This document shows positions 8,332 through 30,379 of a stretch of DNA of 40,735 bases, piece after piece; the stretch's first letter is position 1; each line of letters starts with the position of its first letter. Source of the stretch: a virus. Position numbers and translations under genes: made by a program. The stretch spans positions 1 to 40,735 of the IMG/VR virus record IMGVR_UViG_3300036770_006237; one strand, written 5' to 3'. The notes beneath the pieces were generated by a model. The model was given only the letters and a program-made list of their open reading frames with translations. It searched no databases and was not told the origin of the DNA.

Positions 8332-9768
8332 TCATTGCCAAACTTTTTTGACTAATTGATAGGGATATTGAGCATCGGAATAAAATTGTTTTCGTCGAGT
8401 CAAATGTCGTTTGCTGAATTTACATGTGCTGGTTATATCCCATATGTCAACATGATCCTTATCAAACCCTTTTCTTAGACCTCGCCCGATACTTTGAATC
8501 ACACGAACAAAACTTTTACCCGGCTCAATCAATACTAAATTATGTAACTTGACGATGTTGATACCCACAGCGGCAATACCATAAGTGGCCACAATGACTT
8601 TGTCATTGCTGAAGTTGACCTCTGTATACTGTTCTTTACGGTCTCGAACTTTGGTGGACCCACTGAGGAAAATAGCATTATTGATTTGCGATGCCAATTC
8701 CCGTCCTGGGTCAACACGATCTATTAATACCAATGTGTTGCCCTCCAGTTGGTTAATCATGTTGGCAATATAGGTCAATCTTTCGTGATTTTCTAAGAGA
8801 TATTTTAACTCACTTTGATAATCTCGAAAATCTGCATAGTCAACTAATTGCACAATATTGACATCACAATTGGCCAATACACCTCGGTCTTGTAATTCAG
8901 CGGCTGTGATATTGTTGATCACGTCGCCTACACAGACCTGTAGAGCTCTCCACTCATATTCTTCTTTGGGGATAGTTCCTGTCACTGCCCACCGAATTGG
9001 CACTTCAGCAAATACTTGTGTCATGAGACTTTTTAGCTTATCCGCTTTCAAAGAATGTGCTTCGTCTACCATGATACAAACCAATCCATTTAACAATGTG
9101 GCAATATGTTCAGGATGATCTTTGACCAAACTGTTGAGACTTTGCCAAGTGCATATTAAATGTTGATTTTCAAACTGCTTTCGATCTCCATAAATTACAC
9201 CCACATCTAATCCTATGTTGATGTAATCTTCTTCGGTTTGTGTCACTAGATTTTTACTGGGCACAATCAATAAACTTCGTCCATACTGTTCTACACATTT
9301 GGCCAGAGTGGCAGTAATAATAGTTTTGCCGGCTCCAGTGGAGATACATTGAATGCTTTGTATGTTTTTTAGAAATTCATTAACTGCTGACAGTTGATAA
9401 TCTCTTAATACAATAGGTTGCCCTTGTAATGGATGTCCATCTGGCCATACACGATCGGACAGAAAATTTTCATCCACTGAATGAAATTCAAAAGATCTAT
9501 TATATGTTCTTTGATCATCTAACTCTATCGAGTAACCAGCTTGATCCAATATAGGTAAAATTTCCGGCAATAAATTGACGTATGAACTACCACCAAGCTG
9601 AAAAAATGTTTCGCATCCATCCCATCTACCTAACCTCACCGCCGGTATATATCTCGAACCAGGTAATTGGTATTTGAATTTTTTGTTTAACTCTCGACGA
9701 GTGCCAACAGTCAGACCTTCTAGTTTGACATTGACTTCGTCTTTGATGATAAGTGTGCAGGTTGTCAT
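8332..9768 (-). CDS. uvsW: UvsW-type DNA/RNA helicase
   Basis: A 478-residue superfamily 2 helicase. In T4, UvsW unwinds R-loops and branched intermediates and drives the change from origin-dependent to recombination-dependent replication. Visible motifs are a small N-terminal nucleic-acid binding domain (residues 1-110), LRDYQ Q-like motif at 121, Walker A STGAGKT (143-149), DEAH box VDEAH (234-238), TGT motif III (about 260) and QSIGRGLRKG motif VI (about 425). The length is slightly below T4 UvsW (503). The ATG at 9768 is chosen because the longer TTG form starts inside the probable promoter. Confidence 0.93.
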   Translation of the reverse strand: MTTCTLIIKDEVNVKLEGLTVGTRRELNKKFKYQLPGSRYIPAVRLGRWDGCETFFQLGGSSYVNLLPEILPILDQAGYSIELDDQRTYNRSFEFHSVDENFLSDRVWPDGHPLQGQPIVLRDYQLSAVNEFLKNIQSIQCISTGAGKTIITATLAKCVEQYGRSLLIVPSKNLVTQTEEDYINIGLDVGVIYGDRKQFENQHLICTWQSLNSLVKDHPEHIATLLNGLVCIMVDEAHSLKADKLKSLMTQVFAEVPIRWAVTGTIPKEEYEWRALQVCVGDVINNITAAELQDRGVLANCDVNIVQLVDYADFRDYQSELKYLLENHERLTYIANMINQLEGNTLVLIDRVDPGRELASQINNAIFLSGSTKVRDRKEQYTEVNFSNDKVIVATYGIAAVGINIVKLHNLVLIEPGKSFVRVIQSIGRGLRKGFDKDHVDIWDITSTCKFSKRHLTRRKQFYSDAQYPYQLVKKVWQ

Positions 9769-9789
9769 ATGTAAAATATTTATTGGTTT

Positions 9790-9817
9790 ATTATAACACA
9801 ATAATAGTTAATACCAA
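9790..9817 (-). promoter_or_regulatory. Probable uvsW promoter
   Basis: Minus strand TTGGTA (9817-9812), 16-base spacer, perfect TATAAT (9795-9790). A leader of roughly 15 bases follows, containing AATAAATA, so an overlapping late start is also possible. The -35 is weaker than in the other early promoters. Confidence 0.45.
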
Positions 9818-9826
9818 ATATTCTGA

Positions 9827-9862
9827 ATAAAAAAAAGCCGATACAAAATATTGTATCGGCTT
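9827..9862 (-). terminator. Strong intrinsic terminator after the AAA+ gene
   Basis: A perfect 12-bp stem, AAGCCGATACAA with TTGTATCGGCTT around a four-base loop (9835-9862). On the minus strand it is followed by a run of eight T. It ends the early block 9909-12195 and isolates uvsW behind its own promoter. Confidence 0.85.
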
Positions 9863-9908: not shown

Positions 9909-10949
9909 TCATTGGGGTCGCATAACTGTGGTCTCGGCCATCCGTTGCCACCGGAGAGGAAAACTTTTACGAAGATCAGCAATTTTCAATGCCATACGCA
10001 AACTGACTTCTCGCAAATTATTCTGATTCTTTTCCATAAAGTCAATGATGTCTTGTTGAGTCTGGTTATCGAACTCGTAATCTTGAAACAACAAACCATC
10101 ATGTGCAATCTGTTTGATTCGTAGAATCTTATCACGCATAGTATCCAAAGTCAAATCAAGATAGTGGCAACGACTTTGCAGTGCATCCAAATGATCACGA
10201 AGCTTCTGTGACTTCATCTGATCGAACTTGAGATTAGTAATAAAAATCACCGAACCTTTGAATTCAAATTGATCAGGAATACCTTCTCGACGCAGAGTGC
10301 TACTTTCAGACAACCAAGAAATTTTACGTTTCTTACCCGAGTCCAATGCACCTTTGAGCAAGTTCAAAGACACATCGTCGAGCAGGATGCTATCACAATC
10401 ATCAAACACTACCACACTATTGGCATCAGAATATTTGTATAGAGTCTGATAGAGTCCAATCGGAGTAGCCGATCCTTTGACTACTTCGGCACGCAATCGC
10501 TTGCCAGCAATTTTGTCAAACAAGCAAGCCTTTTCGATTTCTTGCTCAACACCAAACGACTTGCCCACACCAGGAGGTCCCGACACAATCATAGCACGAA
10601 TGTCTCCGGTGGTTGCCGCTTTGGTCATTTCAGTGAGAATTTCAAAACGCTCACGAATTCGAGCAATAGCTTCTTCGTCTGTTTCTTGTGGGACGACTTT
10701 TTCTAAAGATTTTTTGTTCACAAAATTCTCACTGAGAGGCAACTGATTTTCTCCAACATACTGAATGTCATGAATACTGTCAACACGAATACGAACATTG
10801 CCAAACTCGGGACCAAAAAAACCATTGCTAGCCACGGTGACAAATCCACCTCGAGTTCCTGTTTGAAACCCTTTGACTAAGGTAAACACTTCATTGTTGA
10901 TTTTGAATCCACGATAAACACCGTTACAAATTCGAACTTGACTCATCAT
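9909..10949 (-). CDS. AAA+ ATPase of unknown role
   Basis: A 346-residue single AAA+ protein. Residues 1-75 are a beta-rich N-terminal region. Walker A SGPPGVGKS is at about 124-132, Walker B VVVFDDCDS at about 183-191, sensor-1-like VIFITN at about 238, and a helical lid follows. It is not the clamp loader gp44: the N-terminal gp44 sequence is missing and the lid differs. It could be a remodelling or replication-assisting ATPase. Two tandem ATGs exist; AGGAG is three bases before the first and six before the second, so 10946 is at least as likely. It has its own consensus promoter and a strong terminator behind it. Confidence 0.8.
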   Translation of the reverse strand: MMSQVRICNGVYRGFKINNEVFTLVKGFQTGTRGGFVTVASNGFFGPEFGNVRIRVDSIHDIQYVGENQLPLSENFVNKKSLEKVVPQETDEEAIARIRERFEILTEMTKAATTGDIRAMIVSGPPGVGKSFGVEQEIEKACLFDKIAGKRLRAEVVKGSATPIGLYQTLYKYSDANSVVVFDDCDSILLDDVSLNLLKGALDSGKKRKISWLSESSTLRREGIPDQFEFKGSVIFITNLKFDQMKSQKLRDHLDALQSRCHYLDLTLDTMRDKILRIKQIAHDGLLFQDYEFDNQTQQDIIDFMEKNQNNLREVSLRMALKIADLRKSFPLRWQRMAETTVMRPQ

Positions 10950-12194: not shown

Positions 12195-12932
12195 TTATTT
12201 CCAGTATTTTACAATCACCGGATCAACAAGTTGATGCGGCTTGGGGTATCCGTGAAACACCAACACCGAATTTTCATGTGTGATTTCTGTGCCGGCATTG
12301 ACATTGGGTCGATGGCGATGATGTTGCAGGTTGTGTCCTTTGAGTGCTTGCCATCTCCAAGAAACAATTTGTTGAACAGAAAAATATTGCATATGCCCCG
12401 GGTCGATCACTGTTTGCAAATAATCTTGATCTCCACGAAATTTTGATGTAATTTTTTGTATATCATTGTTTTTGATGTTGTCCCATATGTGTCGGAATCG
12501 AGCAGTGTTCCACATCATGACACTGCTGTTCATGCCCACATAATCTTTTTTGTAGAGTCGTTTGAAATCATGTATCGCCCAAAACGAGTTCAAGTCTAAT
12601 TGCAGTAGCCAATCAAGTCGATTAACAATCACAACATCAAGATCGAAATACAATAAATCACCATCATAATGATTGACATCAAAAAGCTGTAGCTTATACC
12701 ACCATGCTTTTTTGGGACCTGCTATCTTGGGCCACTCAACTAAGTTATGGCGAATATATCTGTCAGGCACTGGTCTGGATGCTTCTGTATAGACATGAAA
12801 AATTACCGGCACTGAAAAATTTCGGCACAACATACTATACAATTTGTCCACATAATCGAATGAATAAGTGTCGCCATGAATTACACAAGCACAATTTATC
12901 GAGTCAGGTAATTTTGTAGTCTTTTTTCCCAT
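12195..12932 (-). CDS. Glycosyltransferase, GT-A type with DxD
   Basis: A 245-residue GT-A-like enzyme. The N-terminal strand INCACVIHGD and the acidic metal/nucleotide-sugar motif LLYFDLDVVI (around residues 93-102) are typical of GT8-like transferases, and KFRGDQDYLQTV resembles the second acidic motif. It is 245 residues long, compact for the family. It overlaps the end of the upstream GT-B-like gene by 37 bases, so the two are coupled. It probably adds a sugar to a phage-modified surface glycan; donor and acceptor cannot be read from the sequence. Confidence 0.75.
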   Translation of the reverse strand: MGKKTTKLPDSINCACVIHGDTYSFDYVDKLYSMLCRNFSVPVIFHVYTEASRPVPDRYIRHNLVEWPKIAGPKKAWWYKLQLFDVNHYDGDLLYFDLDVVIVNRLDWLLQLDLNSFWAIHDFKRLYKKDYVGMNSSVMMWNTARFRHIWDNIKNNDIQKITSKFRGDQDYLQTVIDPGHMQYFSVQQIVSWRWQALKGHNLQHHRHRPNVNAGTEITHENSVLVFHGYPKPHQLVDPVIVKYWK

Positions 12933-13744
12933 GTTGCTAATTTTAATTCCTCTAAGGTGTATTCAGTATGCGCTATAGAAATCAACCATTGTGATCTATC
13001 AATATCATAATGTTGTTCAATATTGGCCACATCGATTCCAACTGGACCAGCTAAACTTGTTGAATTCACTATGGGACGCACACCAGACAATGCTGCAATG
13101 ATGCCTGGGCCACTATTATAATTTATAACAGCATGATACAATTCTGGCGCAAAGTCAAATGAATCATAAGTGCCCTTGATTTTATTGGGTAGATCTATAA
13201 TATGTTCAAAATCGCAATTTATAGATCTAAATCGACAACGTGGATGAGGTCTTATCACTATTGAACGTCGACAATATAATTGAATTTGTTTGACTGTGTT
13301 GTTGATCCATTGGTAAAACTCATGCTCGGAAGGTATTTGATGACTTCTTGTGTGTTGTAGACAAACTAAAATTTTCCCGTTGTTTGTTTGAGGTTTTTTT
13401 AACTCAATTCCTAGTTTAGTTGGACGGTCATGATCAAGGTTGTCATTGTGCCCATAAAAACCCTGATTGTTTAAATTATTGACTGCCAATTTCCAAGTAT
13501 GGTTTCGCCGTAATGTTCCGACATCTAACACAAATACTGGTCGGTTTTGCTGTCGAAAATTGTGATATACTTGTTGATTACCCAACATGCGACCATTCCA
13601 TAGCACTGACCAAATCAATGCTGCATCTGCATTCATGTCATGGTCAACAACATCGATACCTATTTTTCGAGCACCTGTTATAAATGATTGTATCACAGGT
13701 TGAGAATTCAGTGCAGAGAATTTACTAAAGGTTGATATTTTCAC
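12896..13744 (-). CDS. GT-B-like glycosyltransferase (paralogue 1)
   Basis: About 282 residues from a GTG start at 13744 (GTG AAA ATA TCA; a TTG further upstream would overlap the divergent gene). The C-terminal half shows SIVIRPHPR, a typical GT-B strand, and the nucleotide-binding INYNSGPGIIAALSGVRPIV, matching the (Y/H)NS....A...G.P signature of capsule-type (KpsS/KpsC-like) and sialyltransferase-like GT-B enzymes. The end, RSQWLISIAHTEYTLEEL, parallels two other genes in this window at 18761 and 19689, so the three are paralogues. Divergent from the 13775 operon. Confidence 0.65.
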   Translation of the reverse strand: MKISTFSKFSALNSQPVIQSFITGARKIGIDVVDHDMNADAALIWSVLWNGRMLGNQQVYHNFRQQNRPVFVLDVGTLRRNHTWKLAVNNLNNQGFYGHNDNLDHDRPTKLGIELKKPQTNNGKILVCLQHTRSHQIPSEHEFYQWINNTVKQIQLYCRRSIVIRPHPRCRFRSINCDFEHIIDLPNKIKGTYDSFDFAPELYHAVINYNSGPGIIAALSGVRPIVNSTSLAGPVGIDVANIEQHYDIDRSQWLISIAHTEYTLEELKLATWEKRLQNYLTR

Positions 13745-13759
13745 AGTGAATTTTTTGAC

Positions 13760-13767
13760 ATTAAATA
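13760..13767 (+). promoter_or_regulatory. Possible late promoter ATTAAATA
   Basis: Six of eight bases match TATAAATA, seven bases before the ATG of the six-gene plus-strand operon. The leader would be about two bases. No better promoter is visible. Confidence 0.35.
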
Positions 13768-13774
13768 AGTAGTT

Positions 13775-14566
13775 ATGATAATAAATTCGTTGCAAGGACA
13801 ATATCCCGATGCTGAGTATTTACTTTATGCAGCGGCAGATCGTGTTTACTTTGACTTATATGCAAAACCATTGATAGTCAGTGCATACAGAAATACACCG
13901 CAATACCGAGTGCATATTCACATCTATGATCCCACCGATGAACAATTAAATTGGTCAAAACTTCAACCCAATCTCACAGTCAGTTGGGAATCTGTCGATC
14001 ATGACTTTTTAAAAAAAACAGCAGGGCATTGGCACGCTAGATCTAATCTATCCAATAATCGTCAATTGGAAATGCAAAAGAAGTCTCAAACTCTTGTGCC
14101 TCAAGATTTTTTAAAATTAGTATGCAATACCTATTATGCCTGCACAAGATTTATAAGACTACAACAATTATTCCGAGCAGGAATGACCTGTTTAAGTCTT
14201 GATGTGGATGGGCTGATAAGAAAAAATTTTTCCATGCAGTTTGATACCAAAGACATTTATTTGTATGAAAAACCCAAAGATCATACACATCTAGCCGGCG
14301 CTTTGTTATTTCAATCGCATGTGGGATCACAAAATTTTCTCAATGAATACGCAGACCAGTTAACACAATCGGTCAATCAAGGTGATCTTTACTGGTTTCT
14401 AGATCAAATCGTTTTAGACAAATTGGTTCCACAATATCAAAAAGGTCTATTACCGATGAGCTACATTGATTGGGCCATGAAACCCGACAGTGCTATCTGG
14501 AGTGCCAAAGGTAAAAGAAAAGAATTATTAATGTTTACAGAGGAGTTGAAAAAATATCGATCATGA
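13775..14566 (+). CDS. Glycosyltransferase-like protein with DxD
   Basis: A 263-residue protein and first gene of the plus-strand glycan operon. The motif CLSLDVDGLIRKNF (about residues 143-156) is the expected DxD metal site of a GT-A fold. HTHLAGALLFQ and FLDQIVLDKLVP correspond to the later substrate-binding segments of GT8-like enzymes. The N-terminal AEYLLYAAADRVYFDLYAKPL resembles the first strand and helix. The 3' end overlaps the next gene by ATGA. Confidence 0.65.
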   Translation: MIINSLQGQYPDAEYLLYAAADRVYFDLYAKPLIVSAYRNTPQYRVHIHIYDPTDEQLNWSKLQPNLTVSWESVDHDFLKKTAGHWHARSNLSNNRQLEMQKKSQTLVPQDFLKLVCNTYYACTRFIRLQQLFRAGMTCLSLDVDGLIRKNFSMQFDTKDIYLYEKPKDHTHLAGALLFQSHVGSQNFLNEYADQLTQSVNQGDLYWFLDQIVLDKLVPQYQKGLLPMSYIDWAMKPDSAIWSAKGKRKELLMFTEELKKYRS

Positions 14567-15315
14567 TCAGCATAGTAATGAGTTATTACAATAGGCTTCG
14601 GCAACTTGATTTCACTCTCAGCACCATAGCCAAATCAACATATCAAGACTATGAAATAGTGTTAGTCGATGACTTCAGTGATCACGATCACGATCCAGCA
14701 ATATTGCTTGAAAAATATCCTCAATTACCATTGAGAATAATCAGAATGGCACAAGTGGTGCAACATCGATGGTATTGCAATCCCTGTATACCCTACAATG
14801 TGGGATTCAGACAAAGTCGGGGCGAAACTGTGATCATACAAAATCCCGAATGTTGTCATATCGGAGACATATTGTCTCATTGCAATTCCAATATCGACGA
14901 GCAAACTTATCTCAGCTATCATTGTTGGAGTTGCACCAAAGATGATGTAAAACAATTACATCAGGGTCAAGAGTTAGATTACATTCCCAAACCCAAAGCA
15001 TTATGGTATAATCATGCACAGCATCGACCTGAATCTTATCATTTCTGCACTGCAATTACCAGGAATAATTTGAAAAAAATCAATGGGTTCGATGAAAGAT
15101 TTGCCAATGGGTTTAGTTACGACGACAATGAATTTGTGCAGAGGATTCGAAATTTACAACTCAACATCAAATTTGTTGACCAACCACATGTGATTCATCA
15201 GCCACATCCAAAATTTTTAACCATGGGATCGGCGGTGACTGACAATCGACAACTATTTTATGACTTAAAGAACACCGGGTTGATTACAGCACCCAACAAG
15301 GAACCAATTCCATGA
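14563..15315 (+). CDS. Family 2 glycosyltransferase
   Basis: A 250-residue inverting GT2 enzyme. The N-terminus ISIVMSYYNR, DYEIVLVDDFSDHD (nucleotide-binding D-D) and the later GFDERFANGFSYDDNEFVQR (the galactosyltransferase-like C-terminal acidic motif) are clear. It lacks a trans-membrane segment, so it is cytosolic or peripheral. ATGA overlaps at both ends place it firmly in the operon. Acceptor and donor are unknown; the sugar made by the next three enzymes is a candidate donor. Confidence 0.85.
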   Translation: MISIVMSYYNRLRQLDFTLSTIAKSTYQDYEIVLVDDFSDHDHDPAILLEKYPQLPLRIIRMAQVVQHRWYCNPCIPYNVGFRQSRGETVIIQNPECCHIGDILSHCNSNIDEQTYLSYHCWSCTKDDVKQLHQGQELDYIPKPKALWYNHAQHRPESYHFCTAITRNNLKKINGFDERFANGFSYDDNEFVQRIRNLQLNIKFVDQPHVIHQPHPKFLTMGSAVTDNRQLFYDLKNTGLITAPNKEPIP

Positions 15316-15839
15316 AACACGAATTCAAAAATAAACCAGTATATTCCAATGACAATTTAATAAGATATATCCGATCGAACATGACTGCCGATGCCAGTTT
15401 GCTCGATCTGGGTTGCGGTCCCAAAGTCTACACTCAAGCAGTAAAAGATCTTTGTGTTCGACAAATCACAGTTGATGCATGGCCTGAAGTTGAGCCCGAT
15501 ATTGTGGCCGACTTAGAAACATTTGATGTTAAAACCATTGGATCGGTTGATTATATATTAATGATCGACTTCATTGAACATCTTGAAAAATCAGCCGGTC
15601 AACGATTAATTGATGATTGTAAAAAGATTGTCAATAAAAAAATATTTCTGTTGACACCATTGGAAGAAATTTGGGACGACAACCACAAAAATGTCAACGA
15701 CCCAAATCTATGGTGTTATGGTAATGTCTATGATTATCATAAAAGCCTTTGGTCAGCAGAAGATTTTGTGGGGTTCCACCCAGTTCAGTTGTATACCTTA
15801 GACAAGTATTTTGTAGGTCACTGGTCAAGACATGAATGA
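15312..15839 (+). CDS. SAM-dependent methyltransferase, class I
   Basis: A 175-residue protein with motif I ASLLDLGCGPKVYTQ (about residues 28-42), the acidic post-I residue at VDAWPE, and motif IV-like VDYILMIDFIEHLEK (about 79-93). This order is diagnostic of small class I methyltransferases such as those acting on sugars or on metabolites in O-antigen clusters. It overlaps the epimerase gene by eight bases. The target is probably a sugar hydroxyl on the glycan made here; a DNA target is less likely since there is no recognition domain or DPPY-like motif. Confidence 0.75.
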   Translation: MKHEFKNKPVYSNDNLIRYIRSNMTADASLLDLGCGPKVYTQAVKDLCVRQITVDAWPEVEPDIVADLETFDVKTIGSVDYILMIDFIEHLEKSAGQRLIDDCKKIVNKKIFLLTPLEEIWDDNHKNVNDPNLWCYGNVYDYHKSLWSAEDFVGFHPVQLYTLDKYFVGHWSRHE

Positions 15840-16926
15840 TCGAATATTGACTATATTGGGCACTCGCCCAGAAATTATTCGTCTCAGTGTCATAATTCCC
15901 AAATTAGATCAAATATTGGGTTTAGAAAATCATTTTGTTTTACATACTGGACAAAACTATACACCCGGGCTCAGTGATATATTTTTTCAAGAATTAAATC
16001 TTAGACCACCAAACTTAATTCTTGACAATCAAAATACCACATTTGCTCAACAATTATCTAATGTGTTTGTGGGCATAGAACAAGTGATACAGCAATTTCG
16101 CCCTACAAAAGCATTGATTTTGGGTGACACTAATTCAGGATTGAGTGCCATTGTCTGTGAAAGAATGGGTATTCCAGTTTATCATATGGAAGCTGGTAAT
16201 CGTTGCTATGACTTGTCTGTGCCGGAAGAAAAAAATCGTAGATTAATTGATTCGATTTCTACATATAATCTTCCATATACTGAACTCAGTCGTCAAAATT
16301 TATTAAGAGAAGGTTTGCCTAACAATCGAATCGCAGTCATTGGTAATCCCATTAAAGAAGTCTTAGAGTTTTATCATGATCAAATCGACAATAGTAAAAT
16401 TCTTTCTGAGTTGGGTTTACAAGTTGGGCAATATGTCATCGCTACTGCACACCGAGCAGAAAATGTTGACGATCAACATAGACTAAAAGAAATCATGATG
16501 TCATTGACACATATTGGCCGAGATTGTCCTGTTGTATTCAGTTGTCACCCCAGAACTAAAAATAAAATTCAAAAATTTAATATTTCAACTGACAATGTCA
16601 ATATGGTAGATCCATTGGGTTTTTTTGATTTTGTTCATCTTGAAAAAAATAGTCGTTTGGCAATCAGCGATTCAGGAACTGTTCAAGAAGAAATGTGTTT
16701 GTTGGGTGTTCCTACTATAACTATAAGAAATACCACAGAAAGACCCGAAACACAATGGTGTGGATCCAACATCGTCAGTGGTCTATCTGCAGAAGATATA
16801 ATTAAATGTTATGAATATATCAACTATTCAACACCACCATCATGGGATCCTCCCGTGGAATACACCAAAAAAAATGTATCGGACACAGTGATAAATCTTT
16901 TAATATCAACTTTGAAATCACAATGA
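15832..16926 (+). CDS. wecB: UDP-GlcNAc 2-epimerase family enzyme (WecB/WbvD-like)
   Basis: A 364-residue GT-B-fold epimerase. Family motifs are complete: ILGTRPEIIRLS at the start, LHTGQNYTPGLSDIFF, ILGDTNSGLSA, HMEAGNRCYD, VPEEKNRRLIDSIS, and SDSGTVQEEMCLLGVP near residue 280. WecB converts UDP-GlcNAc to UDP-ManNAc; close relatives (FnlC/WbjD/WbvD) invert C2 of UDP-2-acetamido-L-sugars. With the following dehydratase and reductase the second role fits better, because this trio is the one needed to make UDP-L-FucNAc or UDP-L-QuiNAc. Length is normal. ATGA overlap with the next gene. Confidence 0.88.
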   Translation: MNDRILTILGTRPEIIRLSVIIPKLDQILGLENHFVLHTGQNYTPGLSDIFFQELNLRPPNLILDNQNTTFAQQLSNVFVGIEQVIQQFRPTKALILGDTNSGLSAIVCERMGIPVYHMEAGNRCYDLSVPEEKNRRLIDSISTYNLPYTELSRQNLLREGLPNNRIAVIGNPIKEVLEFYHDQIDNSKILSELGLQVGQYVIATAHRAENVDDQHRLKEIMMSLTHIGRDCPVVFSCHPRTKNKIQKFNISTDNVNMVDPLGFFDFVHLEKNSRLAISDSGTVQEEMCLLGVPTITIRNTTERPETQWCGSNIVSGLSAEDIIKCYEYINYSTPPSWDPPVEYTKKNVSDTVINLLISTLKSQ

Positions 16927-17912
16927 GTATATTTACACAATCAAGAATTTTAATTACCGGCGGAACTGGGTCATGGGGCAGAACATTAACTCGTTTATTG
17001 TTAGAAACTTACCCAGTCAAAGAAATTGTAATTTACAGTCGAGGAGAACTTCAACAAGTTTTAATGCAGCGAGAATTTAATTTTGATTCTCGCATCAAGT
17101 TTTGTATTGGTGATGTTCGAGATCGAAATGCATTGATCAGTGCTGCACAAGGAATTGACATAATATTTCATTTGGCAGCATTAAAACATGTGCCTATCTG
17201 TGAAGACCATCCACAGGAAGCAATTAAAACTAATATCACAGGAACTACCAATGTCATCGATGCTGCACTGATAAATCGAGTCAAAAAAGTCATAGATGTC
17301 AGCACAGACAAAGCGGTTGAACCATTGAACCTGTATGGTATGACTAAATCTGTGGGTGAGCGATTGATTTTGCAGGCCAATGATTTAAGCACCGACACAA
17401 AATTTATCTGTGTCCGTGGTGGTAATGTCATGGGATCCAATGGAAGTGTAATCCCGTTTTTTATTCAAGAGATTAAAAAAGGCGGACCAGTTAGACTCAC
17501 TGACAGTCGAATGACTAGATTTTTCTTGACTCTGGAACAAGCTATACAACTGTTATTCCGTGCCACTGAATGTGGTATAGGACGAGAAACATTTGTAATG
17601 AATATGCCCAGTTGTCGAATTGTTGATTTAATAGAAGTGTTGATGCAGAGTTATGGCCAAGTTCCGATCACAGAAATAGGTGCTAAACCTGGAGAGAAAA
17701 TACATGAAGTATTAATCAGTCGTCACGAAAGTTCATTAAGTAGACAACTCAACAATGACTATTACATAATTTTACCACAGAACAATAATCAAAAATTAAT
17801 CAACTTGTATTGTGATTTACCTTATATTCCCCACAGTGAATTCAGCAGCAATACTCAACTTATGAATCAATCACAAATACATCAAATGTTAAAACAAGGA
17901 AACTTTTTATGA
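16923..17912 (+). CDS. UDP-GlcNAc 4,6-dehydratase/epimerase (FnlA/WbvB/CapE-like)
   Basis: A 329-residue extended short-chain dehydrogenase. The Rossmann motif ILITGGTGSWG is at residues 10-20, the Y-x3-K catalytic pair at NLYGMTKSVGE (about 140), and DVRDRNAL plus HLAALKHVPICEDHP match the CapE/FnlA/PseB group rather than GalE. It converts UDP-GlcNAc to a 4-keto-6-deoxy-L-hexose with C5 (and often C3) inversion. The start at 16923 (ATGA with the upstream stop) is used; a longer reading from 16842 would overlap 85 bases of the epimerase gene. Confidence 0.88.
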   Translation: MSIFTQSRILITGGTGSWGRTLTRLLLETYPVKEIVIYSRGELQQVLMQREFNFDSRIKFCIGDVRDRNALISAAQGIDIIFHLAALKHVPICEDHPQEAIKTNITGTTNVIDAALINRVKKVIDVSTDKAVEPLNLYGMTKSVGERLILQANDLSTDTKFICVRGGNVMGSNGSVIPFFIQEIKKGGPVRLTDSRMTRFFLTLEQAIQLLFRATECGIGRETFVMNMPSCRIVDLIEVLMQSYGQVPITEIGAKPGEKIHEVLISRHESSLSRQLNNDYYIILPQNNNQKLINLYCDLPYIPHSEFSSNTQLMNQSQIHQMLKQGNFL

Positions 17913-18793
17913 AAGTGTTAGTATTAGGTGCCACTGGCATGGCCGGTCATATGATCACAAAATATCTCAAATTGCAAGGCTATCAAGTGCAAACCTCAGT
18001 TCGTCGGCCAACAAAATCACAATATGATAATCAAATTTTCAATGAAATAGTTGATAATGCAAAATTTTATCTTCAAGCCGATGATGATACCAGTGTAGAT
18101 TTGTTGACTGGGTCAATTGACGACGATGTCGATTATGTCATTAATTGTATCGGTTTACTGGTCAAAGATTGCCAAGATCGACCAGATTTGGCAACAAAAA
18201 TCAATGCTTGGTTCCCTCAATATCTAGCTTACCGATTACAGCGTCATCGAGCACAAATATTACACATCAGCACAGATTGTGTATTTGATGGAAGAAAAGG
18301 CAAGTATGTTGAGTCCGACGCCACTACTGAAAAAAATAATTATGGTCGGAGTAAAAGTCTGGGCGAAATCATTAACAATAAAGATTTGACTTTGAGATGC
18401 AGTATCATTGGTCCAGAAATAAAAAATGGCACAGGGTTAATGCATTGGTTTCAACATCAATCCGATAATATTGTTCAAGGTTGGACCAATGCATACTGGA
18501 ACGGTATCACTACATTGCAATTGGCCAAATGTCTCGATGGTTATATGCAAGACAATCAAAAAATAACTGGATTATATCATCTGGTTGACAACGATTGTTG
18601 TATCAGTAAATGTGATCTATTGTCTTTAATAAACACCATTTATGAAAGTAAAAAAACCATTGTACCTGTTTCTCTGTCTCAGCCCATTGACAAAACCATT
18701 ATTGACACTAGATTGTGTCGACCATGGTCAATTCCCAGTTTAGAAACACAACTCAAAGAATTACGGTTGTTTGACCCACTGTCGCATATGTGA
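17909..18793 (+). CDS. dTDP-4-dehydrorhamnose reductase-like (RmlD/WbvR-like)
   Basis: A 294-residue reductase. It has an N-terminal Rossmann motif VLVLGATGMAG, the RmlD signature ISTDCVFDGRKGKYVE, and the Y-x3-K pair in NNYGRSKSLGE. It should reduce the 4-keto group of the dehydratase product with NADPH. It lacks the C-terminal cupin domain (about 80 residues more) found in CapF/FnlB reductases of the L-FucNAc pathway, and is more like the RmlD-type WbvR of the UDP-L-QuiNAc route; so L-QuiNAc is my guess. Its last 33 bases overlap the convergent gene at 18761. Confidence 0.82.
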   Translation: MKVLVLGATGMAGHMITKYLKLQGYQVQTSVRRPTKSQYDNQIFNEIVDNAKFYLQADDDTSVDLLTGSIDDDVDYVINCIGLLVKDCQDRPDLATKINAWFPQYLAYRLQRHRAQILHISTDCVFDGRKGKYVESDATTEKNNYGRSKSLGEIINNKDLTLRCSIIGPEIKNGTGLMHWFQHQSDNIVQGWTNAYWNGITTLQLAKCLDGYMQDNQKITGLYHLVDNDCCISKCDLLSLINTIYESKKTIVPVSLSQPIDKTIIDTRLCRPWSIPSLETQLKELRLFDPLSHM

Positions 18794-19717
18794 CCAGCAT
18801 CGACTAGATTTTAAATCTTCAAAATTCCAATGACATTGTGATAATTGTTTTATCCATAAATCTCGGTCTGGCATCAATGGGTTTTCCAGTTTTGAAAAAT
18901 CTCGATTAACCATTGGTCCGGCTTGGCAATATCCTGGATCGTCGGTAATGAAAGCAGGGATTCCTTCGATGACAGATACTGAACTCGGTGTGCTGTTATG
19001 GCAAACCAATGCCCAGCAATTTTTTAAATCTTCTATAATAGGACGTTCTTGTGGACTGACAATTATTTTTTGTTTTTTTATCAATTTTTCGTATCGTGGA
19101 AAATCTTTCCAATTTCCCGGATGCCAACGAGCCACAATAGGTCGATCAGTATTATTTCTTATTTGTTGTATAGTATCAACTAACCAGGTCTCAAAGTTTA
19201 CACCACGCATACTCCATCCTTGGGGTCGTTGTAATGCCAATAAAATATGTGACCCAGTTGATCGCCATGGTGACATATCCATATTATAATCTTTTTTGAT
19301 ACGATTCCAATTTTGATCATCCGGGTGTTCATTACAATAGATACCGGTTTTAGGAAAAACACCATTGAAACTATATCTCAAATACCGATGTGGATTTAAT
19401 TTATTTTTATAGATAAAGACATTACTGTCTATGCTTAACCAATATTTTTTCAGTTTAGTTTGAGTATCAATTACCAGTTTTCTAACTTTATAGTGCGACA
19501 ATTTTGTTTTGTTGGGGTTGTCAGAAAATGCATTACCAATAATAGCACCAACATCGCAAGGATCATATTGTTGACTTTGTGTAGTTGATCCGTTATCTCC
19601 ATACCGTGACACTCCTTGAGCAAAGAAAGTCAATGCATCAATTTTTTCTTGACTGTTAATTTTGGCAGGCAAACTGCTCAAATAACTTTTAACAATCAAT
19701 GGTGTGTCTTTGTTCAT
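18761..19717 (-). CDS. GT-B-like glycosyltransferase (paralogue 2)
   Basis: A 318-residue protein. PIVARWHPGNWK and the C-terminal CHNSTPSSVSVIEGIPAFIT match the HN-S.....EGIPA nucleotide-binding signature shared with capsule transferases. The tail LWIKQLSQCHWNFEDL parallels paralogues at 12896 and 19689. It overlaps the upstream gene by 29 bases and the convergent reductase gene by 33. It is the last gene of a four-gene minus operon starting at 22236. A surface-glycan transferase role is inferred from the neighbours. Confidence 0.65.
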   Translation of the reverse strand: MNKDTPLIVKSYLSSLPAKINSQEKIDALTFFAQGVSRYGDNGSTTQSQQYDPCDVGAIIGNAFSDNPNKTKLSHYKVRKLVIDTQTKLKKYWLSIDSNVFIYKNKLNPHRYLRYSFNGVFPKTGIYCNEHPDDQNWNRIKKDYNMDMSPWRSTGSHILLALQRPQGWSMRGVNFETWLVDTIQQIRNNTDRPIVARWHPGNWKDFPRYEKLIKKQKIIVSPQERPIIEDLKNCWALVCHNSTPSSVSVIEGIPAFITDDPGYCQAGPMVNRDFSKLENPLMPDRDLWIKQLSQCHWNFEDLKSSRCWSHMRQWVKQP

Positions 19718-20777
19718 TCTCTTTGACCAATTCCCATGCTTGACCAGAAATCATCTCGTCGAGACTAAATTGACAATAAGCAATATGATTTAACCAAGAC
19801 TGAATAAGATCTTCACTGTAGCGTGTAGGAGATTCTATTTTACTAAGGTCATTGTCACATACTATACTAGCTGCGGTGGGCGCTAATGCAATTGCTGGTA
19901 TACCATAGGCCAATGCTTCGACTGCAGCAATACTGTTATAAGTTACAACACAAAAGATATCTTGATCGAATGATTTATAAATTGTATCATTGGTTCTTTC
20001 AGCTCGAGGTGCTTTTTCTCTTACTATGATCGGACGATCGGTATACTTTTTTAATTCAGAAATTGTATTATCTATCCATTGTTGTTTTTCAATACCATAA
20101 TACTTACAGGGTTTTTCACTTGGGGCCACTATCAATATTCGACTGCCCGGTCGACGCCATCCGTTATAATTTAAAAAACTATTCCAAGACACTAATTTTT
20201 TCCATCTGTCATCGGGCACAGACATTATTTTTTCGTGCTGCATGGAATTTTTAACTATTCTATGATAGATTTTTCTTCCAGTTCTGTTGTTAGGACTGGG
20301 GTAATTTCCCAAGTATCCAGTTTCGATAAAATAATAATCTCTATGTTGTTGCCTCATCCAATCAATGATTTTACCTGATGCAATACCCCTAACTAGTATA
20401 CTGCCTTGTGTATCATGTTTAATGCGATTGAAATCTTCATAGGGGACGAACTCGGCATTGGGATAAGCAGCCATAATCATAGCTGGATAATCTGAAAATT
20501 TTATTAACCGTTCATATCTTTCTTTTTTATCAACTATATGTTGTATAACTCGGCGATGTAATGCCATATCGCCCATCCTTTTTAGATTATATTTGCCCTC
20601 TTTAGTGGATATGTCTGGCGATTCCCATGTTGCTTCAATCTCGGACAAAATTTGTATATCATTGTATAATTTCAAAGCATCTGATACATTATGTTTTAGT
20701 GCACTGATCATAGATTGATGTTGTTGACGATATTCTTCGCCGGGCCATCGTTCAACTAAAGCAATTGGCAAATTCAT
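19689..20777 (-). CDS. GT-B-like glycosyltransferase (paralogue 3)
   Basis: A 362-residue protein. ILIVAPSEKPCKYYGIE and RPIIVREKAPR are the two GT-B-type strands, and TYNSIAAVEALAYGIPAIAL is the nucleotide-sugar binding loop. The end DLIQSWLNHIAYCQFSLDEM aligns by eye with the ends of paralogues 1 and 2. The ATG at 20777 is chosen (ATGA overlap with the upstream stop) over a TTG 21 bases earlier. It has about 40 more N-terminal residues than paralogue 2. Confidence 0.65.
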   Translation of the reverse strand: MNLPIALVERWPGEEYRQQHQSMISALKHNVSDALKLYNDIQILSEIEATWESPDISTKEGKYNLKRMGDMALHRRVIQHIVDKKERYERLIKFSDYPAMIMAAYPNAEFVPYEDFNRIKHDTQGSILVRGIASGKIIDWMRQQHRDYYFIETGYLGNYPSPNNRTGRKIYHRIVKNSMQHEKIMSVPDDRWKKLVSWNSFLNYNGWRRPGSRILIVAPSEKPCKYYGIEKQQWIDNTISELKKYTDRPIIVREKAPRAERTNDTIYKSFDQDIFCVVTYNSIAAVEALAYGIPAIALAPTAASIVCDNDLSKIESPTRYSEDLIQSWLNHIAYCQFSLDEMISGQAWELVKENEQRHTIDC

Positions 20778-21457
20778 TTTGATAAGTTTTGTTGACAATA
20801 ATTAGTAAAAATATATTCACGAAACCATTCATGACTTTGTGCTGAGTCTGCGTAGTCGTGAAAACAAGGAGTCCCTAAGGTAAAATGTAATAGTTTAGCT
20901 CGATGATTCGCTCCATATTCGTCAGGAAGCCAATTCCATTCTATAGGCAGCGAACCTATTTTTTCATCGTCTAGCCAGGCAAATCTATGTAAATGTGCAC
21001 CTGACGATTGTTGTATATATTGTGTTGTTAATTTTTGATTGTTAGGGCTTGCGCAATTCCATAAAATTACGCTGCTCCAATTTTTTCTTGGATAGTCATG
21101 ATTGGGGCTGCCCATATATTTTGTCGAAGAGCGTGTGGTATAATTATGCTTGACTACCATTACATCATAATGAGGATCACGTAATTCCCATAATTCGACT
21201 AAGTCGTCACGAAAAATCATATCCCCATCAACAAATATTGCCCACCCATTGTAATTCATTAACTCTGGAACTAAAAATCTACTATAGATAAAATGATTAC
21301 TGCCATCACTATGTGTTTCTCGATAGGAATTCAACAAGTTCAAAGCCAATGGATGTATTGAAACTGGTTGGCTAGAATTTCTAATTATGCTGTTGACACA
21401 CACATGAAAGGCCACTGCTTCCCTAGGATCATATCCGATAAAAACCGGTATAGTCAT
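20774..21457 (-). CDS. Glycosyltransferase, GT8-like with DGDMIF
   Basis: A 227-residue enzyme with a clean GT-A layout: VFIGYDPREAVAFHVCVNSI at the N-terminus, metal site GWAIFVDGDMIFRDDLVEL around residues 72-90, and a late H (LLHFT.G.P) that in GT8 enzymes binds manganese. Cytoplasmic, no membrane helix. ATGA overlaps at both ends tie it to the operon. It is the clearest transferase on the minus strand of the island. Confidence 0.8.
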   Translation of the reverse strand: MTIPVFIGYDPREAVAFHVCVNSIIRNSSQPVSIHPLALNLLNSYRETHSDGSNHFIYSRFLVPELMNYNGWAIFVDGDMIFRDDLVELWELRDPHYDVMVVKHNYTTRSSTKYMGSPNHDYPRKNWSSVILWNCASPNNQKLTTQYIQQSSGAHLHRFAWLDDEKIGSLPIEWNWLPDEYGANHRAKLLHFTLGTPCFHDYADSAQSHEWFREYIFTNYCQQNLSK

Positions 21458-22236
21458 TGGGATTGCCTTTCTATATCTTCTTCAACACATTCAAATCCAT
21501 ATTGTATTTCGATTATGTGCAATGGAGTTTCTTGTTCATTGGCCAATTGATGCCATTCGTTGAGACCAATCCAAGTATTTTCAAATATATCGAGTCGGTT
21601 TCTTATTTCAATATCAGTTGATCTGTTTATGGTATAAACTGTGGCACAACCTCGACTGACAAACCAAAATTCTTGTCGATGACGATGTCTTTGCATACTC
21701 AAGTAATGACCTGGTTCAACCACTAATTCTTTGACTTTAACTGTTCTATCATAGGATTGTAGTATGCGATAATATCCCCAAGGTCGAATAGTTTTTGGAT
21801 ATCGCCACTGTTCCAAAATTGTCGATGATGAATTAATTTTTTGTTGCCCACCAACCCCAAATTCAAATTTTAAATTTTCGAATCCTGGTTGATTTAGCAA
21901 TCTCATCTCAGGGATATTGTCAATAGTTCTATCACCACCATTGACAAAAATGATTTGGTCATCGGGGTGAAGTTGTTTGACTTGTTTTATAGCATTGCAG
22001 GCCGAGCCATCACTGTCGTCGAATTTAACAGTATAGTCCACCATTTTTAAATTTTGTATTATGTCAAGGCGTTCTTGTTGAGTCATGAATGGCTGACCTT
22101 TTTTCTTGGCCAACCATTCATCACTGTTGACACCAATATACAATATATCGCCCAACGATTTTGCTGCTTTAAAATAAGCGATATGACCACTGTGAACAGG
22201 GTCATATCCTCCAGTTGCTAAAACAATTTTTTTCAT
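21454..22236 (-). CDS. Nucleotidyltransferase-cupin fusion (RfaE2-like + mannose-6-P isomerase-like)
   Basis: A 260-residue two-domain protein. Residues 1-140 are a cytidylyltransferase-like fold with VLATGGYDPVHSGHI (HxGH motif) and the closing INSSSTIL motif, as in RfaE C-terminal or TagD enzymes. Residues 145-250 are a type II mannose-6-phosphate isomerase cupin: PWGYYRILQSY, VEPGHYLSMQRHRHRQEFW (metal-binding His) and WIGLNEWHQLAN. Fusion suggests both activation and isomerisation or sensing of one sugar phosphate. A late-type promoter box CATAAATA lies five bases before the ATG, so the operon 22236-18761 is probably a late one with leaderless mRNA. Confidence 0.8.
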   Translation of the reverse strand: MKKIVLATGGYDPVHSGHIAYFKAAKSLGDILYIGVNSDEWLAKKKGQPFMTQQERLDIIQNLKMVDYTVKFDDSDGSACNAIKQVKQLHPDDQIIFVNGGDRTIDNIPEMRLLNQPGFENLKFEFGVGGQQKINSSSTILEQWRYPKTIRPWGYYRILQSYDRTVKVKELVVEPGHYLSMQRHRHRQEFWFVSRGCATVYTINRSTDIEIRNRLDIFENTWIGLNEWHQLANEQETPLHIIEIQYGFECVEEDIERQSQ

Positions 22237-22267: not shown

Positions 22268-22720
22268 TTAAATTTCAGCATCTTCCATTCCAGCTGCTCT
22301 GAGTCTTGTGATATGTCCCAGCATAAAATTCTTACTTTCTAAAGATTTCATAATGCCTAGCCATTTATTTCTCAGCAATGCTACCTCATTGATGAGGAGT
22401 TCGAATTCGATGACCTCATCTTCACCATCTACATATTTTTCTGCATCTCTACTGGTCAAAGCTCGCGCATATGCTTCGAGATATTTTTGAAAATGTCTTC
22501 GACGAATCTTTCTCAATTGCAAATTTAAATAATTTAGAACTGCTTCAATTTCCTGCAATTGATTAAATCTATGTTCTGTAATGCCCGGTAAAGAACTGAT
22601 ATTTTTTTCAATCAATCCAGATACCGAGCATTCCTTTTTAGCTGTCAACAATTCATTTTCATAATAGGAAATAAAGTCTGGTATTAGAGAACTGTCGTTG
22701 ACTACTCGATTATACCACAT
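22268..22720 (-). CDS. uvsY: UvsY-type recombination mediator
   Basis: A 150-residue protein that I match to T4 UvsY by size (137 residues), place and C-terminal pattern: NKWLGIMKSLESKNFMLGHITRLRAAG parallels the end of UvsY (W.I.L...IK.RGF.I..I...R...AG). It is helical and charged throughout. UvsY loads UvsX on gp32-coated single-stranded DNA, and here the three genes uvsY, uvsX and 32 are neighbours. No strong Shine-Dalgarno; the start lies three bases after the stop of the acidic protein gene. Confidence 0.8.
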   Translation of the reverse strand: MWYNRVVNDSSLIPDFISYYENELLTAKKECSVSGLIEKNISSLPGITEHRFNQLQEIEAVLNYLNLQLRKIRRRHFQKYLEAYARALTSRDAEKYVDGEDEVIEFELLINEVALLRNKWLGIMKSLESKNFMLGHITRLRAAGMEDAEI

Positions 22721-22722
22721 AG

Positions 22723-22968
22723 TTATTCGTCATAGTCTTGATTATCGTCGTCGTCATAGTCGTCGTCAATGTCATCGAGATTGTCACTGTGGAATGCCAA
22801 TGCATGTTTAATAAGTTCATCGTTTTTAAATGCTTTTTTGATATCATCAATATGTTCATCGTTGTCAATCAACATAGAGACCAAGATATCAGCTGCCTGT
22901 TCTTTGTCCACTGGATTCAATAGACTTTTAAATTCATTCCAAAGTTCTGCTGCAAATTCTGAATACAT
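22723..22968 (-). CDS. Small acidic protein between uvsX and uvsY
   Basis: An 81-residue protein: a helical first half (MYSEFAAELWNEFKSLLNP...) and a very acidic tail with about twelve Asp in the last 20 residues. No family recognised, though small acidic proteins are common between uvsX and uvsY in T4-like phages. It is in the same operon and five bases from the uvsX stop, so it may modulate recombination, for example by DNA mimicry; that is inference. Confidence 0.7.
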   Translation of the reverse strand: MYSEFAAELWNEFKSLLNPVDKEQAADILVSMLIDNDEHIDDIKKAFKNDELIKHALAFHSDNLDDIDDDYDDDDNQDYDE

Positions 22969-22973
22969 AGTTG

Positions 22974-24014
22974 TTATTCCTCAGGTAATTTTTCATTATT
23001 TTTTTGAAAATTTTCCATCAGCCGATCCAAACATGAATCGGTATTAGATTCCCATTCTTTTCTAAAAAGTTTAATCGTTTCGCCAGCCGGTGTAACAAAT
23101 GCCAATCTATTACCTTCTTTGGTCAATAAACCTTTTTTCTCAGCAAGATCAACTAGACCACTATAGGGATTCATTCCGGTGGAATAAGGAATTTTAATTT
23201 GCACCCCTTCGAAAGGTTTAGCGTAACGAGTTTTCATCACTTTACAAGCACTACGAATTCCAGTGACCTCAGAAATTTTACCACCATCCTCGTCTTCTTT
23301 GAGTTTGAGTTTTTTCATGGCCACTACAATACTACTGGCATAGACAAAGCCTTGTCCTCCAGAAATTTTGTCGTCCGGGTCGAACATGTCTTGTGATGCA
23401 TAGGTATGATTAGTGCAAAGCATACCGACATTGTAGCTGCCAAACATATTGACACAATTACGAACCAATGCAGTCAATGCTTTGGGTTTACGACCCATGT
23501 CGCCTTTGAGATCACCTGCTTCGAATTGGTTTAGATCTGTGGGTGTTAACAGCATACCCAAACTATCAATTACAAATAATACTTTGGGTCTTTCTTCGGC
23601 TGGCAATGATTTGTAGTCGCCCATGAATGTGCTAATAGTTTTAGCTACATCATCAATCATGGCCATACTAAGTTTCAACAATTTACTATCACTGGTATCT
23701 ACCCCCAATGCTTTAAGCCAATCTTCATCTAGTGCATTTTCTGAGTCAATCAGAACCACAAAGATATCTTTTTGTTGAGCATTTTTAATAATATTTCCAG
23801 CACAGATATAACTTTTTCCACTGCCGGATTCGCCTGCAAATACAGTGACCTTGCCCAAAGGAATACCTCGATTAAAGTCACCCGAAATAAGATAATTTAG
23901 TGCATAATTACCAGTGCTGACCCAATCAGTGGGGTCATTAAATCCCACTGTGAGTCCTTCAATGGATTTAGTAATTTCTTTACGAAACTTTCCAACATCA
24001 AAAGGTCTCGGCAT
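22974..24014 (-). CDS. uvsX: UvsX recombinase, RecA family
   Basis: A 346-residue RecA-like strand-exchange ATPase that builds filaments on single-stranded DNA during recombination-dependent replication. Walker A GESGSGKS lies at residues 61-68, the catalytic Glu in DSENALDEDW at about 98, and Walker B KVLFVIDSLGML at about 147. The C-terminal extension is acidic and basic-mixed as in T4 UvsX (391 residues). AAGGA precedes the ATG by seven bases. It lies downstream of the gene 32 hairpin. Confidence 0.93.
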   Translation of the reverse strand: MPRPFDVGKFRKEITKSIEGLTVGFNDPTDWVSTGNYALNYLISGDFNRGIPLGKVTVFAGESGSGKSYICAGNIIKNAQQKDIFVVLIDSENALDEDWLKALGVDTSDSKLLKLSMAMIDDVAKTISTFMGDYKSLPAEERPKVLFVIDSLGMLLTPTDLNQFEAGDLKGDMGRKPKALTALVRNCVNMFGSYNVGMLCTNHTYASQDMFDPDDKISGGQGFVYASSIVVAMKKLKLKEDEDGGKISEVTGIRSACKVMKTRYAKPFEGVQIKIPYSTGMNPYSGLVDLAEKKGLLTKEGNRLAFVTPAGETIKLFRKEWESNTDSCLDRLMENFQKNNEKLPEE

Positions 24015-24037
24015 TTTATGTCCTTAATAATGAATAT

Positions 24038-24064
24038 AAAGTTAGGGGCTTAGCCCCTAACTTT
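24038..24064 (-). terminator. Hairpin between gene 32 and uvsX
   Basis: A perfect 12-bp stem AAAGTTAGGGGC with GCCCCTAACTTT around TTA. There is no clean U run on the minus strand (TATATTC follows), so it is probably a partial terminator or an mRNA-processing/stability element that lowers uvsX relative to the abundant gp32. Confidence 0.55.
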
Positions 24065-24077
24065 AGAGTTTTAGTTG

Positions 24078-29999: not shown

Positions 30000-30379
30000 C
30001 TTGGATAACCTCGAAAACCTTTCAATGGGCTAACAGTGTTGACTATGTTGGGTTCATGACTTTGGCTGGATCCAATGGCATGTTTGCCGCCCGGTGTGTC
30101 AGACATTGACAATGCTTGATCAATGATTTCAATGTCTTGATTATCAAAAGTAGATATCACGGCGTGTTGCCCGAATGCTCCTTCGCTGCTGAAATCAGAA
30201 TCGAAATTTTGATCTTGGCTTTTAGTAGCTCTTGCACGAGCAATAGCCACCCCGAATCTATAAGTCTTGTATGGATCTTGACCAGTCAATGCAGGTATTA
30301 TAAAAGTATTTTTCATAGGGTCAGATGAGAGATCAGATAAATGCCCCAATTGTTCTGTGATGAATTCACGTGCTCTCAT
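29996..30379 (-). CDS. Capsid-leader protein, MRAREFITE family (paralogue A)
   Basis: A 127-residue protein beginning MRAREFITEQ, close to the T4 capsid-targeting leader (T4 internal proteins start MKTYQEFIAE), with I-T-E as a matching gp21-type cleavage site. It shares ALTGQDPYKTYRFGVAIA and the C-terminal SPLKGFRGYPR with paralogue B at 31062. No catalytic motif. Likely a protein packaged inside the prohead. ATGA overlaps link it to both neighbours. Confidence 0.7.
   Translation of the reverse strand: MRAREFITEQLGHLSDLSSDPMKNTFIIPALTGQDPYKTYRFGVAIARARATKSQDQNFDSDFSSEGAFGQHAVISTFDNQDIEIIDQALSMSDTPGGKHAIGSSQSHEPNIVNTVSPLKGFRGYPR

Follow-up and report, generated by a model that had tools for sequence, protein, structure and literature searches.

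What is glycosylated by the twelve genes that lie together at positions 12195–22236 of the IMG/VR virus record IMGVR_UViG_3300036770_006237? The window analysed is the whole 40,735-base record, which represents part of the genome of a large phage. A preliminary description, made from the sequence alone, had recognised these genes as a phage glycan island that may rebuild the host O-antigen or decorate the virion. All twelve open reading frames (ORFs) of the island were found at 12195–22236, and they include a complete set of three enzymes for the synthesis of an L-hexosamine, a rare sugar. We propose that the island is a self-contained phage glycosylation module that most likely modifies a protein of the virion, and we assign this reading a probability of about one half. 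The genes of the island are:

12195–12932, minus strand: GT-A type glycosyltransferase with a DxD motif (27/27 family members); phrog_1962 (glycosyltransferase), 3.9e-18
12896–13744, minus strand: KpsC-like glycosyltransferase paralogue; GTG 13744 taken as start, ORF opens at 13801
13775–14566, plus strand: GT8-fold glycosyltransferase by predicted fold, first plus-strand gene; DxD 23/23
14563–15315, plus strand: GT2/GT7C glycosyltransferase, PF00535 and PF02709; co-occurs with the 2-epimerase
15312–15839, plus strand: putative class I methyltransferase; PF13489 and PF08241 below cut-off
15832–16926, plus strand: CapG-like non-hydrolysing UDP-HexNAc 2-epimerase (Epi2); PF02350 5.8e-83, TIGR00236 above cut-off, CapG 7ya2 288 bits
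16923–17912, plus strand: FlaA1/PseB-type dehydratase; PF02719 7.7e-92, FlaA1 2gn4 252 bits
17909–18793, plus strand: RmlD-like 4-keto reductase of 294 amino acids, probable 3-epimerase/4-reductase; PF04321 2.1e-21
18761–19717, minus strand: KpsC/WbbB-fold glycosyltransferase without the QXXXD nucleophile; AlphaFold2 model, conserved QxxxG and HP
19689–20774, minus strand: KpsC-like paralogue without Q and HP; 20774 taken as start, ORF opens at TTG 20798
20774–21457, minus strand: GT8 glycosyltransferase, PF01501 1.7e-07; homologues in Caulobacter and Pelagibacter phages
21454–22236, minus strand: HldE-C/CTP_transf_like nucleotidyltransferase fused to a PMI-type cupin (NT-cupin), PF01467 and PF01050; HxGH 68/68

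The plus-strand run comprises six genes that overlap by 4, 4, 8, 4, and 4 bases when the start of the dehydratase is moved from 16842 to 16923, in agreement with the few-base overlaps noted before. The 2-epimerase exceeds the wecB equivalog cut-off (TIGR00236; 248.6 versus 210.15), and CapG is its closest relative among solved proteins, which bears out its assignment as a C2 epimerase. The dehydratase matches the solved proteins FlaA1 (252 bits), WbjB (240), CapE (210), and Megavirus Mg534 (4TQG, 153). Its residues S127, D129, K130, Y138, and K142 are invariant, and the active site Y138-x3-K142 (YxxxK) is present in 13/13 sequences. According to PMC3699295, CapE-type dehydratases carry an MxxxK active site. 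Therefore, the protein is a dehydratase as previously described, but not one of the FnlA/WbvB subfamily; an FnlA, WbvB, or CapE identity was rejected on the YxxxK motif, and the score of 248 bits falls short of the FnlA cut-off of 730. The PseB profile (TIGR03589) fits better than that of FnlA, although the score remains below its cut-off (330.9 versus 407.75). A pseudaminic acid pathway was rejected, since the PseB equivalog cut-off is missed and no PseC-type aminotransferase family occurs among the 12 island proteins. The reductase scores above the cut-off of PF04321 and misses the rmlD equivalog cut-off (74 versus 224); its residues T122, D123, Y145, and K149 are invariant in eight sequences, and the Y-x3-K motif of short-chain dehydrogenases/reductases is present, as expected from the earlier RmlD-like label. 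Missing active-site residues had been named as the observation that would count against the pathway; on alignment, the catalytic residues are intact.

A scan with the phage dehydratase profile recovered at least 458 bacterial loci. Among the best 80 of these, mostly from Paenibacillus and other Bacillota, a 2-epimerase gene is located near the dehydratase gene in 60 and an RmlD gene in 63. This adjacency supports a single pathway, in which dehydratase, reductase, and 2-epimerase would convert UDP-GlcNAc to UDP-2-acetamido-2,6-dideoxy-L-hexose by the established chemistry of CapE-CapF-CapG and Megavirus Mg534-Mg535-Mg536. The expected product is UDP-L-QuiNAc or UDP-L-FucNAc in phages with the epimerase, and UDP-L-RhaNAc or L-PneNAc in relatives without it; the sequence does not distinguish the L-Qui, L-Fuc, L-Rha, and L-Pne epimers.

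The pathway is accompanied by seven TRANSFERASES in the island, the number given in the preliminary description. Four are GT-A or GT-A-like enzymes (12195, 14563, 20774, and 13775), recognised by family match or GT8 fold, and three are KpsC-like (12896, 18761, and 19689), recognised by the KpsC/WbbB fold and profile relationship. The product of gene 13775 has no family match in the profile libraries searched. Its AlphaFold2 model, calculated from 18 sequences with a mean predicted local distance difference test (pLDDT) score of 93.7, resembles glycogenin (Z 16.9), GlyE (16.6), and LgtC (15.8). In the family of the 20774 product, the first aspartate of the DxD motif is conserved in 57/57 sequences and the second in 56/57. 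The nucleotidyltransferase-cupin fusion was recognised correctly, and its probable role is the activation of another sugar phosphate. The claim of a methyltransferase holds less well, as the class assignment of the 15312 product is weak (PF08241 20.5 bits versus a cut-off of 21.2). No island protein contains a 19-residue segment with a mean hydropathy above 1.69; by hydropathy, none spans a membrane.

The proteins encoded by 12896, 18761, and 19689 have no family match above cut-off in the profile libraries searched. The AlphaFold2 model of 18761 (30 sequences, pLDDT 92.9) is nearest to KpsC, WbbB, and KrkA (Z 12.5–14.8, with KpsC at 14.8), whereas other GT-B proteins reach at most 11.3. On this one model, 18761 has the modified GT-B fold of the retaining transferases of β-linked 3-deoxy-D-manno-oct-2-ulosonic acid (Kdo) of families GT99, GT107, and GT140. 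Alignment of profiles with hhalign joined the 18761 family to the families of 12896 (99.1%, E 8.4e-19) and 19689 (99.0%, E 2.8e-18). We took GTG 13744 as the probable start of 12896 because most of its relatives measure 277–286 amino acids. KpsC, WbbB, and KrkA use a catalytic aspartate within a QXXXD motif together with an HP motif, and the fold accepts different chemistries, as exemplified by KrkA and KpsS1 (portions of PMC10148158 and PMC12887879). In the 18761 family, the glutamine and the HP motif are present in 56/56 sequences, and the aspartate position is occupied by glycine in 55 and aspartate in one. The 12896 family retains both motifs in 43/43 sequences and has serine in 40, glycine in two, and aspartate in one at this position. 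Neither the Q motif nor the HP (CMP-binding) motif is present in the 19689 family (23 sequences). Sequence-profile searches for a link to Kdo transferases gave only chance matches and one sub-threshold Capsule_synth match among 30 members, with no significant sequence match. Since the nucleophile is missing, the KpsC-like genes are relatives by fold and not members by mechanism, and their identification as Kdo transferases was rejected. The CMP-sugar synthetase family PF02348 is present in none of the 15 large relatives of the window; therefore, a CMP donor, if used, would be that of the host.

The island is modular and widespread among uncultivated relatives. Relatives of the dehydratase were detected in 97 viral contigs, of which 80 were kept, and the order of the island block is conserved in these 80. 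No dehydratase match of at least 60% identity was found in the phage isolate collection; the best, at 37.9%, were to two records that bear the name Staphylococcus phage and are without annotation. We counted modules in the 62 of the 80 loci having at least 3.6 kb upstream of the dehydratase. The RmlD gene adjoins the dehydratase in 61, and the exception (L061) ends 34 bases past the dehydratase. Epi2 and GT2 genes occur together in 36/62 loci and are both missing in 26/62. The methyltransferase accompanies Epi2 in 30/36 loci and the 13775-type glycosyltransferase in 25/36, and both are absent from all 26 loci without Epi2. In the three loci read among those lacking Epi2, the segment carries other glycosyltransferases, one of them GT25, and a methyltransferase-like ORF. 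Nine of the 15 larger records, among them contigs as long as 210, 188, and 162 kb, have no PF02350; two of the nine (L095 and L124) are not dehydratase matches. On the tree of uvsX and uvsY, the Epi2 state changes at least four times in 36 rows, and the variable segment therefore appears to move between phage backbones. As lineages exchange this glycosyltransferase/epimerase segment, the glycan would differ between related phages, as it does among giant viruses. Other genes were seen at related loci. A 2-oxoglutarate (2OG)-Fe(II) oxygenase gene adjoins the dehydratase in L018 (9241–9999), and a carbamoyltransferase gene lies between primase and helicase in L022 (18268–19737). An ORF between NT-cupin and uvsY in L039 (16687–17868), an island with methyltransferase-like ORFs, presumably encodes an S-adenosylmethionine synthetase.

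Based on these genes, a mechanism of virion glycosylation can be proposed. The seven soluble transferases would assemble a short hetero-oligosaccharide directly on a cytoplasmic acceptor, and the product may be methylated by the 15312 enzyme. A protein of the tail or capsid would be the most likely acceptor, ahead of an O-antigen on a lipid carrier. Flippase (PF01943), initiating transferase (PF02397), and WecA-type (PF00953) families were found in none of the 15 large relatives, which are possibly incomplete genomes, whereas control families were found in 9–13 of 14 genomes. An initiating transferase and a flippase, as expected in a Wzx/Wzy-type O-antigen cluster, are also absent from the 12 island proteins; Wzy and ligase families were not searched. 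The absent lipid-carrier families and the lack of hydrophobic segments speak for direct assembly without a complete lipid-carrier pathway, and weaken the suggestion that the island rebuilds the O-antigen.

The homologous transferases of cultured phages point in the same direction. Searches with tblastn identified relatives of ORF 18761 in 16 phage records, 14 of them from Caulobacter, and relatives of ORF 20774 in 18. The gene context was examined in four of the 14 Caulobacter phage records, those of CcrColossus, CcrPW, CcrBL9, and CcrSC. All four contain a protein with QRGIG and RxHP motifs, a 19689-like protein, and a GT8 in a row on one strand, located between tail-protein genes and an endolysin or lysozyme gene. 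CcrColossus gp127 matches the 18761-type family with a profile probability of 96.4%. An FkbM-type methyltransferase is annotated in the tail-lysis stretch of three of the four phages. CcrColossus gp126 (L245, 14249–14899), which follows the last tail gene, has a sub-threshold match to the MptE-like family PF01973 (31.8 versus 34.6 bits). The PF01973 domain is found in flagellin glycosyltransferases. In Pelagibacter phage Mosig, similar genes are located away from annotated tail genes. The tail-lysis placement in the four Caulobacter phages is support for virion decoration, which is somewhat better founded than a rebuilding of the O-antigen, and we favour it over remodelling of the host envelope, without certainty.

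Several observations weigh against a virion acceptor, which we infer from genes. The island of the window lies among replication and recombination genes and not among structural genes. Folds of the GT8 and KpsC-like kinds are characteristic of lipopolysaccharide (LPS) and capsule enzymes, and GT8 genes of pelagimyophages were interpreted as LPS modification (in part of PMC7029224). The phage could borrow a host lipid carrier, and the zero counts above come from relatives whose genomes may be incomplete. The Caulobacter phage records are closely related to one another, and four were examined. The co-occurrence of Epi2 and GT2 was rejected as independent evidence, since the dehydratase tree has just one change of Epi2 state. 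The late-promoter motif ATAAATA was found 11 times, compared with 14.6 expected, and carries no information.

In the principal alternative, the enzymes remodel the envelope of the infected cell from inside, altering LPS core, O-antigen, or capsule via host lipid carriers. The changed surface would keep out superinfecting phages or shield the cell while a long infection runs its course. It is a substantial possibility that ranks close behind virion decoration. It is the standing view for the clusters of cyanophages and jumbo phages (sections of PMC7824862) and of pelagimyophages (PMC7029224, likewise in part). It agrees with the resemblance of the GT8, HldE-like, and KpsC-like enzymes to those of LPS core and capsule synthesis and with the position of the island among replication genes. 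The missing initiating-transferase, WecA-type, and flippase families, the lack of a membrane-spanning island protein, and the tail-lysis position of the homologous set in the four Caulobacter phages count against it.

The surroundings of the island bear on the remaining explanations. The window contains a T4-like gene set of uvsX, uvsY, gp32, and large terminase. The closest isolates by large terminase are PA5oct-like Pseudomonas jumbo phages (51.9%), and UvsX is 65–67% identical to that of jumbo phages of Sinorhizobium, Vibrio, Agrobacterium, and Pectobacterium. Two small ORFs and the twelve island genes occupy the space between the AAA ATPase gene (9909–10949) and uvsY (22268). The flanking genes are:

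8332–9801, minus strand: uvsW-like helicase, beyond the AAA ATPase
9909–10949, minus strand: AAA ATPase, phrog_1250
22268–22720, minus strand: uvsY, phrog_231 3.7e-14
22723–22968, minus strand: small acidic ORF
22974–24014, minus strand: uvsX, PF00154 5.1e-15

A perfect stem of 13 pairs, terminator-like on both strands, is located between uvsX and gp32 (24037–24065), and a second stem of 12 pairs at 9835–9862. A sigma-70 scan gave 78 matches versus 59.2 expected; the 11/12 match at 13755–13782, which overlaps the start of 13775, was left out of the argument. Elsewhere in the window, a gene with a NUMOD3 motif (38050–39582, plus strand) lies on the other strand from the genes around it and resembles an insertion of the homing-endonuclease type beside the gene at 37306. 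Two small minus-strand proteins (29996–30379 and 31062–31427) with a common N-terminus MRAREFITE and a common C-terminus KGFRGYPR are likely tandem paralogues.

A scan with uvsY returned at least 80 loci. Among the matches listed, 131 loci have uvsY and readable matches. NT-cupin lies beside uvsY on the same strand in 63 of these, and 12896 lies beside it on the opposite strand, with the block inverted, in 25. In six loci uvsY leads straight to the AAA gene without an island, in 24 none of the genes of the window lies on that side, and the remaining 13 are of other kinds. Gene 12195 keeps its place beside the AAA gene in relatives whose remaining block is inverted. A tree of 114 rows requires at least seven changes of orientation and at least three losses or gains of the island. 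Long inverted repeats flanking the block were searched for and none were found, and whole-locus exchange between phages would give the same change count. Therefore, we speak of recurrent rearrangement and not of a switch, and programmed inversion was rejected. The same uvsY site holds a different pathway in L120 (9253–19253), with DegT aminotransferase, NT-cupin, and GT8, as well as ORFs that read like an oxidoreductase and an acetyltransferase. In L114 (16068–17190), where the uvsY site lacks the genes of the window, two ORFs read like what we take to be the halves of HldE, a heptose kinase and an adenylyltransferase.

The island genes are under strong purifying selection. The median ratio of nonsynonymous to synonymous substitution rates (dN/dS), calculated by the Nei-Gojobori method from close, non-independent pairs with dS of 0.1–1.5, is 0.044–0.103 for the twelve genes, compared with 0.065 for uvsX and 0.046 for uvsY. 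Together with the synteny in 80 contigs, the low dN/dS is more than chance, and the impression that the island is maintained was right.

Glycosylation of phage DNA, in which the sugars would be placed on modified bases, is unlikely. The location of the island within a recombination module beside uvsX, uvsY, and gp32 would suit it, as would the oxygenase gene next to the dehydratase in some relatives (L018), but the thymidylate-synthase/dCMP-hydroxymethylase family PF00303 is present in none of the 15 large relatives, and in some relatives this site carries no island. To our knowledge, seven glycosyltransferases and a CapG-type pathway exceed what known DNA glycosylation uses. Least probable is that the island is host-derived passenger cargo in a hot spot without a function for the phage: the occurrence of the block in both orientations, of empty sites, and of swapped modules reveals that exchange is frequent, but the strong purifying selection, the catalytic residues conserved across divergent phages, and the transferase set common to Caulobacter and Pelagibacter phages count against it.

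Returning to virion decoration, we tentatively suggest that the uncultivated phages of a large clade autonomously glycosylate their virions with L-hexosamines that they make themselves, UDP-L-QuiNAc in members with the epimerase and UDP-L-RhaNAc in those without, using a new family of KpsC-fold glycosyltransferases that lack the nucleophile of Kdo transferases. If true, bacteriophages would have an equivalent of the fibril glycosylation of giant viruses, with the coat sugar switched by the swap of one gene segment. With a virion acceptor, the switching of coat sugars would count as a trait of phages in general, easily read from the genome by the presence or absence of the epimerase, and comparable with that of giant viruses. 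If the acceptor is the host envelope, there is a defined sugar to seek in infected cells. Either way, three glycosyltransferase families unrecognised by the searched profile libraries gain a fold, a set of partners, and a cultured test system in the Caulobacter phages.

Among the results listed, our searches of open PMC papers showed none on this island. The closest parallel is the Mg534-Mg535-Mg536 cluster of Megavirinae, in which the same three enzyme classes are clustered with glycosyltransferases. As described in part of PMC10117803, these viruses make UDP-L-Rha2NAc, which was tested, and L-Qui2NAc, a prediction from composition, and the sugars sit on fibrils. A related giant virus is without the third enzyme, the 2-epimerase, so that some lineages have Rha2N instead of Qui2NAc and the choice of sugar is clade-specific. 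Megavirinae differ in being eukaryotic viruses with unrelated virions; the phage glycan is predicted from genes, and the phage dehydratase matches FlaA1 (252 bits) more closely than Mg534/4TQG (153 bits). The CapE-CapF-CapG, FnlABC, and WbjBCD routes to UDP-L-FucNAc follow the same logic, and Epi2 is closest to CapG, but the phage dehydratase has YxxxK instead of MxxxK and the phage reductase is an RmlD-like protein of 294 amino acids. The β-Kdo transferases of GT99, GT107, and GT140 (WbbB, KpsC, and KrkA) share the fold and, with two of the three island paralogues, the conserved glutamine and HP motif; unlike them, 55/56 phage sequences of the 18761 family and 42/43 of the 12896 family lack the QXXXD nucleophile. 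CcrColossus, CcrPW, CcrBL9, and CcrSC all have two KpsC-like glycosyltransferases and a GT8 adjacent to one another, but no dehydratase, reductase, or epimerase is annotated in the stretches examined, and their set lies in the tail-lysis run. Clusters of epimerase/dehydratase, cupin, HIGH nucleotidyltransferase, and several glycosyltransferase families have already been reviewed in cyanophages and jumbo phages and described in pelagimyophages (PMC7824862 and PMC7029224, each in part), and the island is one of this kind. It differs from the clusters in those portions in its single conserved order at one site, its full three-enzyme L-hexosamine pathway, and its recurrent change of orientation. 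The aquatic jumbo-phage lineage with core glycosyltransferases reported in 2025 appears to differ in its predicted hosts and gene set (part of PMC12619734). Viral glycan islands have been described before, and this sugar pathway also operates in giant viruses; what the present island contributes is a conserved location, all three enzymes of an L-hexosamine pathway whose final step is optional, and a family of KpsC-fold transferases.

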